IMG/VR virus record: IMGVR_UViG_3300005613_000018
Location: 1 to 64,000 of that record
Direction: 5' to 3' (one strand)
Length of the DNA: 64,000 nucleotides
DNA from: a virus
Below the pieces are notes generated by a model. That model made no database searches. It saw only the letters and a program-made list of their open reading frames with translations, and had not been told where the DNA came from. Positions 10,845-26,557 of this stretch are shown in pieces. Position numbers and translations under genes: made by a program. Position 1 is the stretch's first letter. Each line of letters begins with the position of its first letter.

Positions 10845-11176
10845 TGAGTTTCTTTAAATCAAAATTAGTTCGAGAAGAAATTCAAGAAATTTCTAATCTT
10901 CAGGATCAGATCTATTCACATGTTTTTAGTTTTTCTGAGATGTCAAAGGATGAAAAACTTGGACATGTTGATTTGTTAGAGGAGTTGTTGAAGAAACAAC
11001 AAATTCTTTATACTAGATTGAGTCTTTCGGATGATCCTGAAGCAAAAACTATGAAAGAAAATATTCTCAATTCTGCAAAGTCTTTGGGATTTAATGAAGA
11101 TATTGATCTAAATTATCTCTTCAGAAATATGGAGAGTGTCATTGAGTCTATGAGAGATACCATTAAGAGGTCTTGA
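10844..11176 (+). CDS. DUF1825-like protein
   Basis: 110 helical residues. The MSFFKSKLVREEIQEISNLQD opening, central LLEELLKKQQILYTRLSLSDDPEA and the C-terminal NMESVIESMRDTI resemble DUF1825, a small cyanobacterial family also reported in cyanophages. The position between gp59 and gp32 suggests a link with replication; mechanism unknown. Confidence 0.65.
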   Translation: MSFFKSKLVREEIQEISNLQDQIYSHVFSFSEMSKDEKLGHVDLLEELLKKQQILYTRLSLSDDPEAKTMKENILNSAKSLGFNEDIDLNYLFRNMESVIESMRDTIKRS

Positions 11177-11201
11177 CACCTCTCCCAATCCGATCTATAT
11201 T
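11166..11201 (+). promoter_or_regulatory. gp32 early promoter, -35 in a hairpin loop
   Basis: TTGACA (11173-11178), 17 bases, TATATT (11196-11201). The -35 lies largely in the loop of hairpin AGAGGT (11166-11171) with ACCTCT (11178-11183), as in the other composite modules, although no T tract follows here. The expected start is around 11205-11208. Confidence 0.75.
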
Positions 11202-11203
11202 AT

Positions 11204-11235
11204 TGGGGTTCCCAGTTACCCCACCAAAAACTGGG
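11204..11235 (+). promoter_or_regulatory. gp32 mRNA pseudoknot (putative autoregulatory site)
   Basis: Stem 1 is TGGGGT (11204-11209) with ACCCCA (11218-11223). Stem 2 is CCCAGTT (11211-11217) with AACTGGG (11229-11235). Loops are 1 and 5 bases, a compact H-type pseudoknot 35 bases before the gp32 start, followed by an AT-rich leader. T4 gene 32 carries a pseudoknot in its leader that nucleates gp32 binding for translational self-repression. A promoter start near 11205 would clip stem 1 slightly, and CCCAAT (11184-11189) can compete for part of it. Confidence 0.6.
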
Positions 11236-11270
11236 AAATAGGCCAAATACACTTAATACGAGGTATACAA

Positions 11271-12209
11271 ATGGGTTTTTCAGACCTTAAAAAACAATCT
11301 TCTCTTGGTTCTCTTACTGCTAAACTGGTAAAAGAAGTTGAGAAACAAAACAACAATAGTGGTGGAGGAGTTGATGATCGACTCTGGAAACCTGAAATGG
11401 ATAAGAGTGGTAATGGTTACGCTGTAATCCGTTTTCTTCCTGCACCTGATGGGGAAGACCTTCCTTGGGTAAAACTGTTCTCTCACGCGTTTCAAGGACC
11501 TGGTGGATGGTATATCGAGAACTCACTGACTACAAACGGTGGAAAAGATCCTGTCAGTGAATTGAATCGTGAACTGTGGAATAGTGGTAACGAATCAGAT
11601 AAGGAGACTGTTCGTAAACAGAAACGTAAACTGTCCTATTACGCAAATATCTATGTTGTAAAGGATCCTGCCAATCCTCAAAATGAAGGTGGTGTATTCC
11701 TCTATAAGTTTGGTAAGAAGATCTTTGATAAGATCATGGGTGCTATGCAACCTGAATTTGAAGATGAAACACCTATCAATCCCTTTGATTTCTGGGAAGG
11801 TGCTAACTTCAAAATCAAACTGAAGAAAGTTGCTGGTTATTGGAACTATGATTCTTCCGAGTTTGATCGTCCTGGTCCTCTTTTGGATGATGATGACGCA
11901 ATGGAAGCAATCTGGAAGAAAGAATATTCTCTGACTGATCTTATTTCTGATGATAAGTTCAAGTCTTATGATGAATTGAAAAAGCGTCTTGATTATGTTC
12001 TCGGAACTAAATCTACTCGTTCAACTCCTGTTCAGGAAGAGACTGAGTATGATAACTATCAAGAATCTGAACGAAAGAAAGTCACTGAGGATGAAGTGAT
12101 GTCTAAACTCGAAGAGTCTTATAAGGCATCAAAGACTGTGGAACCAAGTAGTTCTTCTGATGATGACGATGATCCTATGAGTTACTTCGCTCGTCTCGCA
12201 GACTCCTGA
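11271..12209 (+). CDS. 32: Single-stranded DNA-binding protein gp32
   Basis: 312 residues against 301 in T4. Seen: a basic N-terminal cooperativity region (SDLKKQSSLGSLTAKLVKEVEK), an aromatic-rich OB core (NGYAVIRFLPAP, PWVKLFSHAFQGPGGWYIENS, KLSYYANIYVV), GKKIFDKIM, FEGANFKIKLK-like FWEGANFKIKLKKV, and a very acidic C-terminal tail (SSSSDDDDDPMSYFARLADS). The T4-type zinc cysteines are not evident, as expected for cyanophage versions. It covers single-stranded DNA in replication and recombination. A GAGG ribosome site lies 7 bases before ATG, and the leader can form a pseudoknot. Confidence 0.95.
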   Translation: MGFSDLKKQSSLGSLTAKLVKEVEKQNNNSGGGVDDRLWKPEMDKSGNGYAVIRFLPAPDGEDLPWVKLFSHAFQGPGGWYIENSLTTNGGKDPVSELNRELWNSGNESDKETVRKQKRKLSYYANIYVVKDPANPQNEGGVFLYKFGKKIFDKIMGAMQPEFEDETPINPFDFWEGANFKIKLKKVAGYWNYDSSEFDRPGPLLDDDDAMEAIWKKEYSLTDLISDDKFKSYDELKKRLDYVLGTKSTRSTPVQEETEYDNYQESERKKVTEDEVMSKLEESYKASKTVEPSSSSDDDDDPMSYFARLADS

Positions 12210-12257: not shown

Positions 12258-12300
12258 AAAAAAGAGTCCTATTACTTTTTATAGGACTCTTTTCTTTTTA
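12258..12300. terminator. Bidirectional terminator between gp32 and gp53
   Basis: A 13-base inverted repeat (AAAAGAGTCCTAT with ATAGGACTCTTTT, 8-base loop) has A-rich and T-rich flanks on both sides, so it can end the converging transcripts. Confidence 0.9.
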
Positions 12301-23840: not shown

Positions 23841-26557
23841 TAGAACAAGGATTATTTAAAAGACACTTTGTCGGTAGAGATGGTTTCTATTGGTGGATAG
23901 GACAGATTGCTCCAGAAGAAACTTGGAAAAATAACCTACCAGGAATTCCTAGTCCAAGTAATGAGGCTCAGAGAGGATTTGCTGAAAGATATCGTGTCCG
24001 TATTATGGGACATCATACTGCAAATCCAGGAGACCTTCCCGATGAAGTTCTTCCATGGGCCCATGTGATGTATCCACCTACTGCTGGAAGTGGTAACAGA
24101 GATTCTTCTCAATCAGCTAACTTAGCACAAGGTGATTTTGTATTTGGATTTTTCCTAGATGGTGAAGATGCTCAACAACCCATTATTATGGGTTGTTTGG
24201 GGAATAATGATTACCAAGCGGTAATGAAAAATATTCCACCAGCTCGTTTTATTCCATTTAGTGGTTATGTAGTAGATGAAACTAGATCAACTAGTGGTGT
24301 GAAAAAAATACTTGATCCAGGTCTTGTTGCTCAAAACGAATATAGTGCTAAAAATTCGGGTTCTGTTATTAATCCTTTTGGACACGAATCTGCAAATTCC
24401 ACTACAACCATCAGTTCATTGGCTGATGATGCTGCTCGTAGAATTGGTGAATTGTCAACTACATTACCACAAACAGAAGAATGTGAGAAACTTCCTTTAG
24501 GTAAAATTCAAAAAGAAATTCAAAGAATAATTCAATTAATTGAAAACGCTCAGAAAAGTATCTCTGATTATAGATATATCTTAACAGGACTTCAGGGGCA
24601 AGCAGAAGCAAAGATTAAGTATTATATTGATGAAGCTTCTAGAATTATATCTGGTGCTTTAAAGTGGGTATTTGCTCAAATAGAAAAATTTGTCTTAAAA
24701 AATGTAAATGATACTCTGAAAAACTTTTATTATTTTTTATTTCCCGATCAACGACCAGGACTTAAATTTACTGTTGAAACTATTAATGATTTAATCGCTT
24801 GTGCTTTTAAGAAATTGATTGCATCTTTATTTGATATGGTTTCTAAATTTATTGCAAGCTCTATTTCAAAGGCAGTGAATATTGGAACCTCTTTTGTTGG
24901 AGGATTTTTAGGTCAAATACTCGGACAAATAGGTGGTATCTTAAAAGGTGTCATTAATTCAGCTTTGGGCCCTTTTACTTCTCTCGTTGGTCAAGTTGCA
25001 AACTTGTCTGGAAGTGTACTTGGAATCATCACTGATGTTTTAAATTTTCTTTTATGTGAAGAAAGACCCAAGTGTGCAACTATTGGTGAATGGAGTCCTT
25101 GGTTGGGTGGTAATAAATTACCAAAATTTAATCTTGATTCTATTATCAATCAAGCAAACTCAATAGCCGAAACTTTTAATGATGTTGTAGATGGAGTACA
25201 AGTTACCATTGAGAATTTTGAATTTAATATTGATTTTGAATCGGTTTTTAATACTTCTGTTGAAATTGCTACAAATCAGGCAAATGATATTATTAACAAT
25301 GCACCAAACAATGTTGTTAATCTTGTAAACTATCCCGCAACTCAGACAGTTTCCAGAGCATTTGCAGGGGGAACTCCATCACAAACAACTTCAAATTTAG
25401 TAACTACATCTGAAGTCTCTCCCAATGAAACATCTACCACTGATGAAAATCCTTCATCATTACGACCAATAGCTACAGTTATTCCAACTGTTCAACCTGG
25501 TACAAATCCGACAGGTGCTCGAGCAGCTGGTCCTCCGATTGCCGTATTTATTGATAGTGAGGGTGAAGGTGCTTCTGGAAATTTGATTATTTCACCTTCG
25601 GGAGAAATTATAGGTTATGATGTAATTAGTACTGGTGTAAATTATACTCCATTTACACTTGGATATGTAGAAGATGATTGCGGAAAAGGAAGAGGTGGGG
25701 CATTGACACCAATTTTAGGGCCAGTCAAAGTCAAAAAAGACCCAGATAATGATTATTGGGTGGATGAAAATGGTTTTTCAATCTTAGATAGTGAAGGTCT
25801 TCCCATTACAATTCTTGATTATGATGGAAATATGATTACTGATCAGGGTGAAACGAGAGGAGTCATAGGTATCTTGATAGAAGAATCGGGAACAGATTAT
25901 CTTACACAACCTGATGGTAGTTTTGGTGGAGATGGTAGAACTTGGTCAAATCCCGAAGATACTATTTTAGAAAGAGTAGATAAAACTTTAGAAGTCATTC
26001 CTCCTGGAAGAGTTGTAGATCTCGTTCCGGATGATATAATTACTCTCCCCCCAAAAACTTTGGAAGTAACTGAACCACTTGAAGATTCTGAAGAATCTGG
26101 TGAAGAAGAGATTAGAGGAGGTGCACCATATCTCATGAAAAAATCGGGTAGAATTACAACACCTTCCGTTACTTATGAGAAAGGTGAAAGTCCATATCCA
26201 ATTAGTTCAAATGGATCATATCCTGTAGTTCTTTACCTTTGTAGAGTATTTGTCAAACAATCCGGAATATCTTATAATGAAGGTGATGAAATTGTGATAG
26301 AACCAAATCATGGAGCAAAAGCTGTTCCTGTTCTTGGTGAATCTGGTCAAGTATTATCCGTAAAGGTTACAGAATCTGGAGAAGGATTTACCGAAAGACC
26401 TACAATTTACATCCGTTCTGAAACTGGATTTAATGCAGTTCTCATTCCAAAATTCTGTATAGATAGAATAGGTCAAGACCAACTCAAAGAACCATCTGAA
26501 GTTGAAAGACTTCAAGGAAAGCTTATTTCCGTAATAGATTGTGTAGGTAAGGTTTAA
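23837..26557 (+). CDS. 5: Baseplate hub OB-fold protein gp5-like, no lysozyme domain
   Basis: 906 residues. The first 140 (GRDGFYWWIGQIAPE, YRVRIMGHHTANPGDLPDEVLPWAHVMYP, GDFVFGFFLDGEDAQQPIIMG) are the OB domain of gp5. A helical, glycine-containing region with amphipathic stretches follows (about 330-400), then strand-rich repeats (SGEIIGYDVISTGVNYTPF and a related PVLGESGQVLSVKV unit). The T4-type lysozyme domain is absent; that activity appears to sit in the tail proteins at 16937 and 19471. The spike is encoded by the next gene. Confidence 0.75.
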   Translation: MIEQGLFKRHFVGRDGFYWWIGQIAPEETWKNNLPGIPSPSNEAQRGFAERYRVRIMGHHTANPGDLPDEVLPWAHVMYPPTAGSGNRDSSQSANLAQGDFVFGFFLDGEDAQQPIIMGCLGNNDYQAVMKNIPPARFIPFSGYVVDETRSTSGVKKILDPGLVAQNEYSAKNSGSVINPFGHESANSTTTISSLADDAARRIGELSTTLPQTEECEKLPLGKIQKEIQRIIQLIENAQKSISDYRYILTGLQGQAEAKIKYYIDEASRIISGALKWVFAQIEKFVLKNVNDTLKNFYYFLFPDQRPGLKFTVETINDLIACAFKKLIASLFDMVSKFIASSISKAVNIGTSFVGGFLGQILGQIGGILKGVINSALGPFTSLVGQVANLSGSVLGIITDVLNFLLCEERPKCATIGEWSPWLGGNKLPKFNLDSIINQANSIAETFNDVVDGVQVTIENFEFNIDFESVFNTSVEIATNQANDIINNAPNNVVNLVNYPATQTVSRAFAGGTPSQTTSNLVTTSEVSPNETSTTDENPSSLRPIATVIPTVQPGTNPTGARAAGPPIAVFIDSEGEGASGNLIISPSGEIIGYDVISTGVNYTPFTLGYVEDDCGKGRGGALTPILGPVKVKKDPDNDYWVDENGFSILDSEGLPITILDYDGNMITDQGETRGVIGILIEESGTDYLTQPDGSFGGDGRTWSNPEDTILERVDKTLEVIPPGRVVDLVPDDIITLPPKTLEVTEPLEDSEESGEEEIRGGAPYLMKKSGRITTPSVTYEKGESPYPISSNGSYPVVLYLCRVFVKQSGISYNEGDEIVIEPNHGAKAVPVLGESGQVLSVKVTESGEGFTERPTIYIRSETGFNAVLIPKFCIDRIGQDQLKEPSEVERLQGKLISVIDCVGKV

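Follow-up and report, generated by a model that had tools for sequence, protein, structure and literature searches.

A T4-like pseudoknot in the gp32 leader of some cyanophages

The gp32 locus and the fold of its leader

The window, a 64,000-nucleotide stretch of viral DNA, carries a gene for a 312-residue single-stranded DNA-binding protein. Matches to PF08804 (E 2e-50) and to PDB entries 8GME, 2A1K and 1GPC identify this protein as a true gp32. The gene is preceded, in the same direction, by a phrog_468 gene and by a gene for a gp59-type helicase loader. On its 3' side, positions 12260-12293 hold a strong terminator-like hairpin with a T-run, located between the convergent gp32 and baseplate-wedge genes. 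The leader and the gene comprise the following features.

11173-11178, + strand: -35 box (TTGACA), sigma-70-type promoter (from the sequence; 207 of 215 unique gp32 leaders have it)
11196-11201, + strand: -10 box TATATT, after a 17-nt spacer (promoter match)
11204-11209, + strand: stem 1 (S1), 5' strand UGGGGU (sequence, T4-geometry scan, alignment)
11210, + strand: loop 1 (L1), U (sequence)
11211-11217, + strand: stem 2 (S2), 5' strand CCCAGUU (sequence, alignment)
11218-11223, + strand: S1, 3' strand ACCCCA (sequence, alignment)
11224-11228, + strand: loop 3 (L3), CCAAA (sequence)
11229-11235, + strand: S2, 3' strand AACUGGG (sequence, alignment)
11247-11250, + strand: leader repeat AUAC, copy 1, at -24 (motif counts)
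11256-11259, + strand: leader repeat AUAC, copy 2, at -15 (motif counts)
11260-11263, + strand: Shine-Dalgarno sequence GAGG (sequence)
11265-11268, + strand: leader repeat AUAC, copy 3, at -6 (motif counts)
11271-12209, + strand: gp32, single-stranded DNA-binding protein, 312 residues (PF08804 and PDB matches)

The promoter is a near-perfect sigma-70 site, TTGACA-17-TATATT matching at 11 of 12 positions. Inverted repeats were seen around the gp32 promoter of other phages. In S-PM2, AGGCACAGGGG/CCCCTGTGCCT flanks the -35 box; in two further loci (L043 and L059), the arms GGGCACTTGC/GCAAGTGCCC flank the -10 region.

An H-type pseudoknot can form at 11204-11235. Its stems of 6 and 7 bp abut with no base in between, its loops are of 1 and 5 bases, and 35 nt (11236-11270) separate it from the gp32 AUG at 11271. 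Direct reading of the letters thus reproduces exactly the fold and the spacing proposed in the initial annotation. The RNA downstream was there called AT-rich, a fair description that in detail corresponds to three AUAC repeats 9 nt apart.

We searched both strands of the 64 kb with a scanner built for T4 geometry, whose control, the known T4 pseudoknot, was recovered. The pseudoknot of the leader is the top-scoring one, with a stacking energy of -26.8 kcal/mol against -20.4 for the next. The second-best candidate of the window, at 24173, falls within a long ORF and was not considered further. No dinucleotide shuffle of the leader out of 2000 reached the pseudoknot of the window. The ordinary nested minimum-energy fold of the leader is unremarkable (z -0.4), so that the evidence resides in the pseudoknot topology and in covariation. 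Because either stem folded alone reaches about -11 kcal/mol and the summed stacking of both is -26.8 kcal/mol, the pseudoknot should be favoured over single stems provided that its entropic cost stays below about 15 kcal/mol.

Distribution and covariation among gp32 leaders

Loci gathered by gp32 similarity (80 loci) and by leader DNA patterns gave 215 unique leaders, which sort into three classes: family A, the type of the window; family B, a sister type; and leaders having no pseudoknot. The gp32-similarity sample alone contains 70 unique leaders, 2 of family A, 6 of family B and 62 without pseudoknot, the automatic classes counting a B-like leader with GUC/GAC (L010) among the latter. P-TIM68, Bellamy, S-SM2 and P-SSM4 have no pseudoknot in their leaders. 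Pseudoknot matches that overlap the promoter, those of S-PM2 and Syn2, are excluded from the leader structures. A wide scanner, run over the class without pseudoknot as a recheck, found no possible pseudoknot in 89 of its 96 leaders. Among the others, three (L161, L163 and L193) are family B leaders with AAGA replacing AAGC. Two more (L112 and L140) have a third type of pseudoknot about 60 nt before gp32, in which GUGU/ACAC is combined with GUGUG/CACAC and an L3 of AACAAAA. Since 62 of the 70 gp32-sampled leaders lack it, the pseudoknot is restricted to some cyanophage lineages, and the suggestion of conserved autoregulation in cyanophages does not hold as it was worded. The literature searched yielded no report of cyanophage gp32 start sites or pseudoknots.

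Family A leaders consist of a G-run, a 1-nt L1, a long S2, CCCC, ACC[CA]AA and the S2 complement. Five isolates have such leaders. Those of RN05-S and S-H68 were read directly; those of S-B05, S-B43 and RB11-B align to the leader of the window exactly like that of S-H68. In 19 sequences, S2 occurs as CCCAGUU/AACUGGG, CUCAGUU/AACUGAG, GGUUAGG/CCUAACC, GGUCAGG/CUUGACC and GGUGAGG/CUUCACC; CCCAGA/UCUGGG is a further form in this family. In the alignment, 93.4% of the cells are paired, whereas slid registers never exceed 63%, and the covariation score is 0.359 against 0.167 in shuffles, which ignore the relatedness of the sequences (0 of 500). The search pattern fixed the loop bases and CCCC, leaving the G-run and every S2 base free. 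As no S2 base was fixed in the scans for either family, S2 pairing is an independent test. S1 of family A is less well proven than S2, because four of its five pairs are invariant and because CCCC was part of the pattern.

Extra genes are present between the DUF1825 gene and gp32 in S-H68 (positions 1052-1713 of its locus) and likewise in RB11-B, S-B05 and S-B43. In the last three, they are annotated as HNH or other endonucleases. These insertions recall segG, located beside the T4 gene 32 pseudoknot.

Family B leaders follow the layout NNGG-CU[AG]-NNN-[AG]A[UA]-CCNN-(L3)-AAGC-NNN-NNN', with an S2 of 3 bp. The search pattern fixed loop bases, GG and CC and no S2 base. Across 41 distinct gp32-linked leaders, all 123 S2 cells are paired, by nine pair sets (CCC/GGG, CCU/AGG, GGG/CCC, CCU/GGG, GCU/AGC, GGA/UCC, GAC/GUC, UCC/GGA and GCU/AGU); permutations pair 75 cells on average and 96 at most. 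The two S1 positions adjoining GG/CC are paired in 82 of 82 cells, and S1 covaries as GAGG/CCUC, GCGG/CCGC and GGGG/CCCC. The alignment is 100% paired, well above every slid register, and scores 0.640 against 0.130 (0 of 500 shuffles). Outside gp32 leaders the pattern has nine matches, at least eight of them chance-like, with pairing at about the chance level. Blastn of family B leaders against named phages returned only gp32-start or chance matches, so that family B could not be assigned to any cultured phage.

Given how the shuffles treat relatedness, safer evidence is provided by the gp32 tree and by pairs of near-identical proteins. On the tree, family A is nested within a B-rich clade and the S2 type changes at least 16 times among family B. 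The gp32 proteins of RN05-S and S-H68 (L206 and L207) are 99.7% identical and their S2 sequences are unrelated. RN05-S and a further locus (L268) have gp32 proteins 99.1% identical and share the rest of the leader; the pseudoknot differs, with a different S2. Thus, the shape is kept and the letters are not. The compensatory changes for which the initial annotation proposed to look are present in both stems in related phages, strongly in S2 and, for family A, more weakly in S1. We conclude that the fold exists and that selection maintains it as a pseudoknot.

Comparison with the T4 operator

The gene 32 mRNAs of T4 and RB69 have a pseudoknot and that of RB49 has none; the autoregulation mechanism is described for T4 and RB69 (PMC535899, PMC3014915). 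The reference structure for the autoregulatory pseudoknot of T4, T2 and RB69 is PDB 2TPK. In T4, S1 has 4 bp, L1 1 nt, S2 7 bp and L3 5 nt, and 39 nt lead to the AUG. The scanner used on the window recovered pseudoknots of T4 layout in T4, in the RB69-like phage JK45 and in a Klebsiella phage, and found none in the leaders of RB49-like TB34, RB43-like CfP1, KVP40 and P-SSM4. For the T4-like phages, its outcome agrees with the literature.

The window shares with T4 the gp32 gene, the H-type fold, the 1-nt L1, the 7-bp S2, the absence of an inter-stem base and the 5-nt L3, together with single-stranded repeats between the pseudoknot and the start. The distance to the AUG is 35 nt in the window, 39 in T4 and 47 in JK45. 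Hence the T4 gene 32 layout recognized in the initial annotation is borne out by the geometry, obtained with one and the same scanner. Its remark that the sequences are unrelated is also correct: the T4 stems (UGCC/GGUA and GCUAUGA/UCAUAGC) have nothing in common with those of the window, whose S1 is longer and nearly all G-C. Considered as a T4-type element, the window has a pseudoknot in the gp32 5' leader with a 1-nt L1, an S2 within 6-7 bp, 0-1 nt between the stems and an L3 within 5-7 nt, as well as compensatory changes and unstructured repeats before the ribosome site. It has neither UUAA(A) repeats nor sequence homology to the T4 pseudoknot. The window further differs from T4 in the strong sigma-70 promoter that adjoins or overlaps S1, and gp32 is here a putative ligand.

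In place of the T4 UUAAA repeats, the window has AU[A/C][C/U] repeats at intervals of 9-10 nt. In cyanophage gp32 leaders, these are found with or without a pseudoknot. Among gp32-sampled leaders, which are homologous and therefore do not give independent counts, 97 of the 122 distances between successive copies equal 9 or 10 nt; at 9 nt, about 1.5 are obtained from shuffles. P-SSM4 has AUAC at -35, -26, -17 and -8, and KVP40 has six copies. Over 54 ORF leaders of the window, AU[A/C]C motifs average 0.41. The T4-like phages devoid of a pseudoknot (TB34, CfP1, KVP40 and most cyanophages) resemble the window in that their ribosome site lies in a single-stranded leader, which carries AUAC/AUCC repeats in the cyanophages and AUAC repeats in KVP40. 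The AU[A/C][C/U] repeats could be the counterpart of the T4 UUAAA repeats and, as such, a candidate gp32-binding array.

By analogy with T4, the leader is probably a translational autoregulatory operator of gp32, made of the pseudoknot and the AU[A/C][C/U] repeats. The trigger would be gp32 in excess of the available single-stranded DNA. One gp32 molecule would bind the pseudoknot by its shape, and further molecules would spread cooperatively along the unstructured repeats, spaced by 9-10 nt. The protein would then cover the Shine-Dalgarno sequence and the AUG, turning off its own translation. The identity of the gene, the pseudoknot, covariation under a near-constant gp32, the gp32-only family B motif and the periodic repeats argue for this proposal. 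Against it count the predicted +1 inside S1, the invariant S1 pairs of family A and the fact that most cyanophages manage without the pseudoknot.

Transcription start and alternative readings

The canonical +1 is expected seven bases past the -10 box, at 11208, within the 5' strand of S1. It coincides with the last G of that strand in 37 of the 39 family A leaders. Consequently, family A transcripts from the local promoter may lack the S1 5' strand, and read-through RNA retains it. This bears on the objection foreseen in the initial annotation, a transcription start downstream of stem 1, and is the chief difficulty for the operator. In family B, the -10 box is followed by S1 after 0-1 nt in 26 leaders; in 16 others S1 starts at the canonical +1, and in the remainder mostly downstream of it. 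Late motifs of the TAAATA type were seen no more than 32 nt upstream of S1 in 4 of 39 family A and 15 of 75 family B leaders. Only RNA continuing from the gp59 genes upstream is certain to contain the complete S1; we infer its presence in the relevant mRNA.

The position of the predicted +1 is what one would expect if the mRNA were short and only an S2 hairpin near its 5' end were conserved, guarding the message from decay or spacing the ribosome site. The G-run of S1 would then be a promoter discriminator or start region, and there would be neither pseudoknot nor autoregulation. RNA without S1 indeed folds into a stable S2 hairpin (-10.8 kcal/mol, z -3.1). However, the G-run is in place to pair with CCCC in every gp32-linked family A match, even though the pattern left it unfixed. 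Moreover, the family B S2, with 3 bp and a loop too long for a lone hairpin, is nevertheless completely paired, and the family B S1 covaries. We regard this explanation as unlikely.

A start inside S1 can also be accommodated in a promoter-gated form of the operator, to which we assign a similarly low likelihood. The local transcript would start inside S1 and form no pseudoknot, and read-through RNA from the gp59 operon would form it. If so, regulated and unregulated gp32 mRNAs would be produced from one site. In the same reading, the compact family B fold, with its 3-bp S2 and conserved CU[A/G] and AAGC loops, would be a second RNA architecture recognized by the same protein.

A pseudoknot riboswitch, or a site for a host or phage protein other than gp32, is less probable again. 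The conserved loop bases of family B (CU[A/G], [A/G]A[U/A] and AAGC) are reminiscent of a specific binding site. The PreQ1-I riboswitch (RF00522) is likewise a small pseudoknot of H type whose third loop is A-rich, and positions 11199-11239 match this family below threshold. However, the match has 16 bits for a gathering threshold of 39 (E 0.5), family B loci show no PreQ1 match, and no Rfam family reaches threshold; relaxed thresholds gave nothing credible, and family B matches no Rfam family. A metabolite riboswitch, considered on account of the PreQ1 match, was rejected. Family A keeps its geometry while its S2 letters change freely, and the family B motif, unlike PreQ1-I, is restricted to gp32 leaders. 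Finally, short G+C-rich stems next to a promoter might raise the suspicion that the bases pair by chance, or that an operator or terminator repeat acting in the DNA has been taken for an RNA fold. Such an explanation is made highly improbable by the shuffles of the leader, by two interleaved covarying helices and by the absence of a T-run after the stem.

Returning to the T4-like operator, the leaders described here display, in a cyanophage clade, the T4 architecture with an unrelated and fast-changing sequence over near-constant gp32 proteins. Some of the carriers are cultured phages (RN05-S and S-H68), and nature has supplied the controls by exchanging the stem among phages whose gp32 proteins are 99% identical. 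A long-standing question, by what means a single-stranded-DNA-binding protein indifferent to sequence locates its own mRNA, thereby becomes directly testable. That the shape is kept in related phages while the letters change suggests, by analogy, that some ocean phages control gp32 as phage T4 does.
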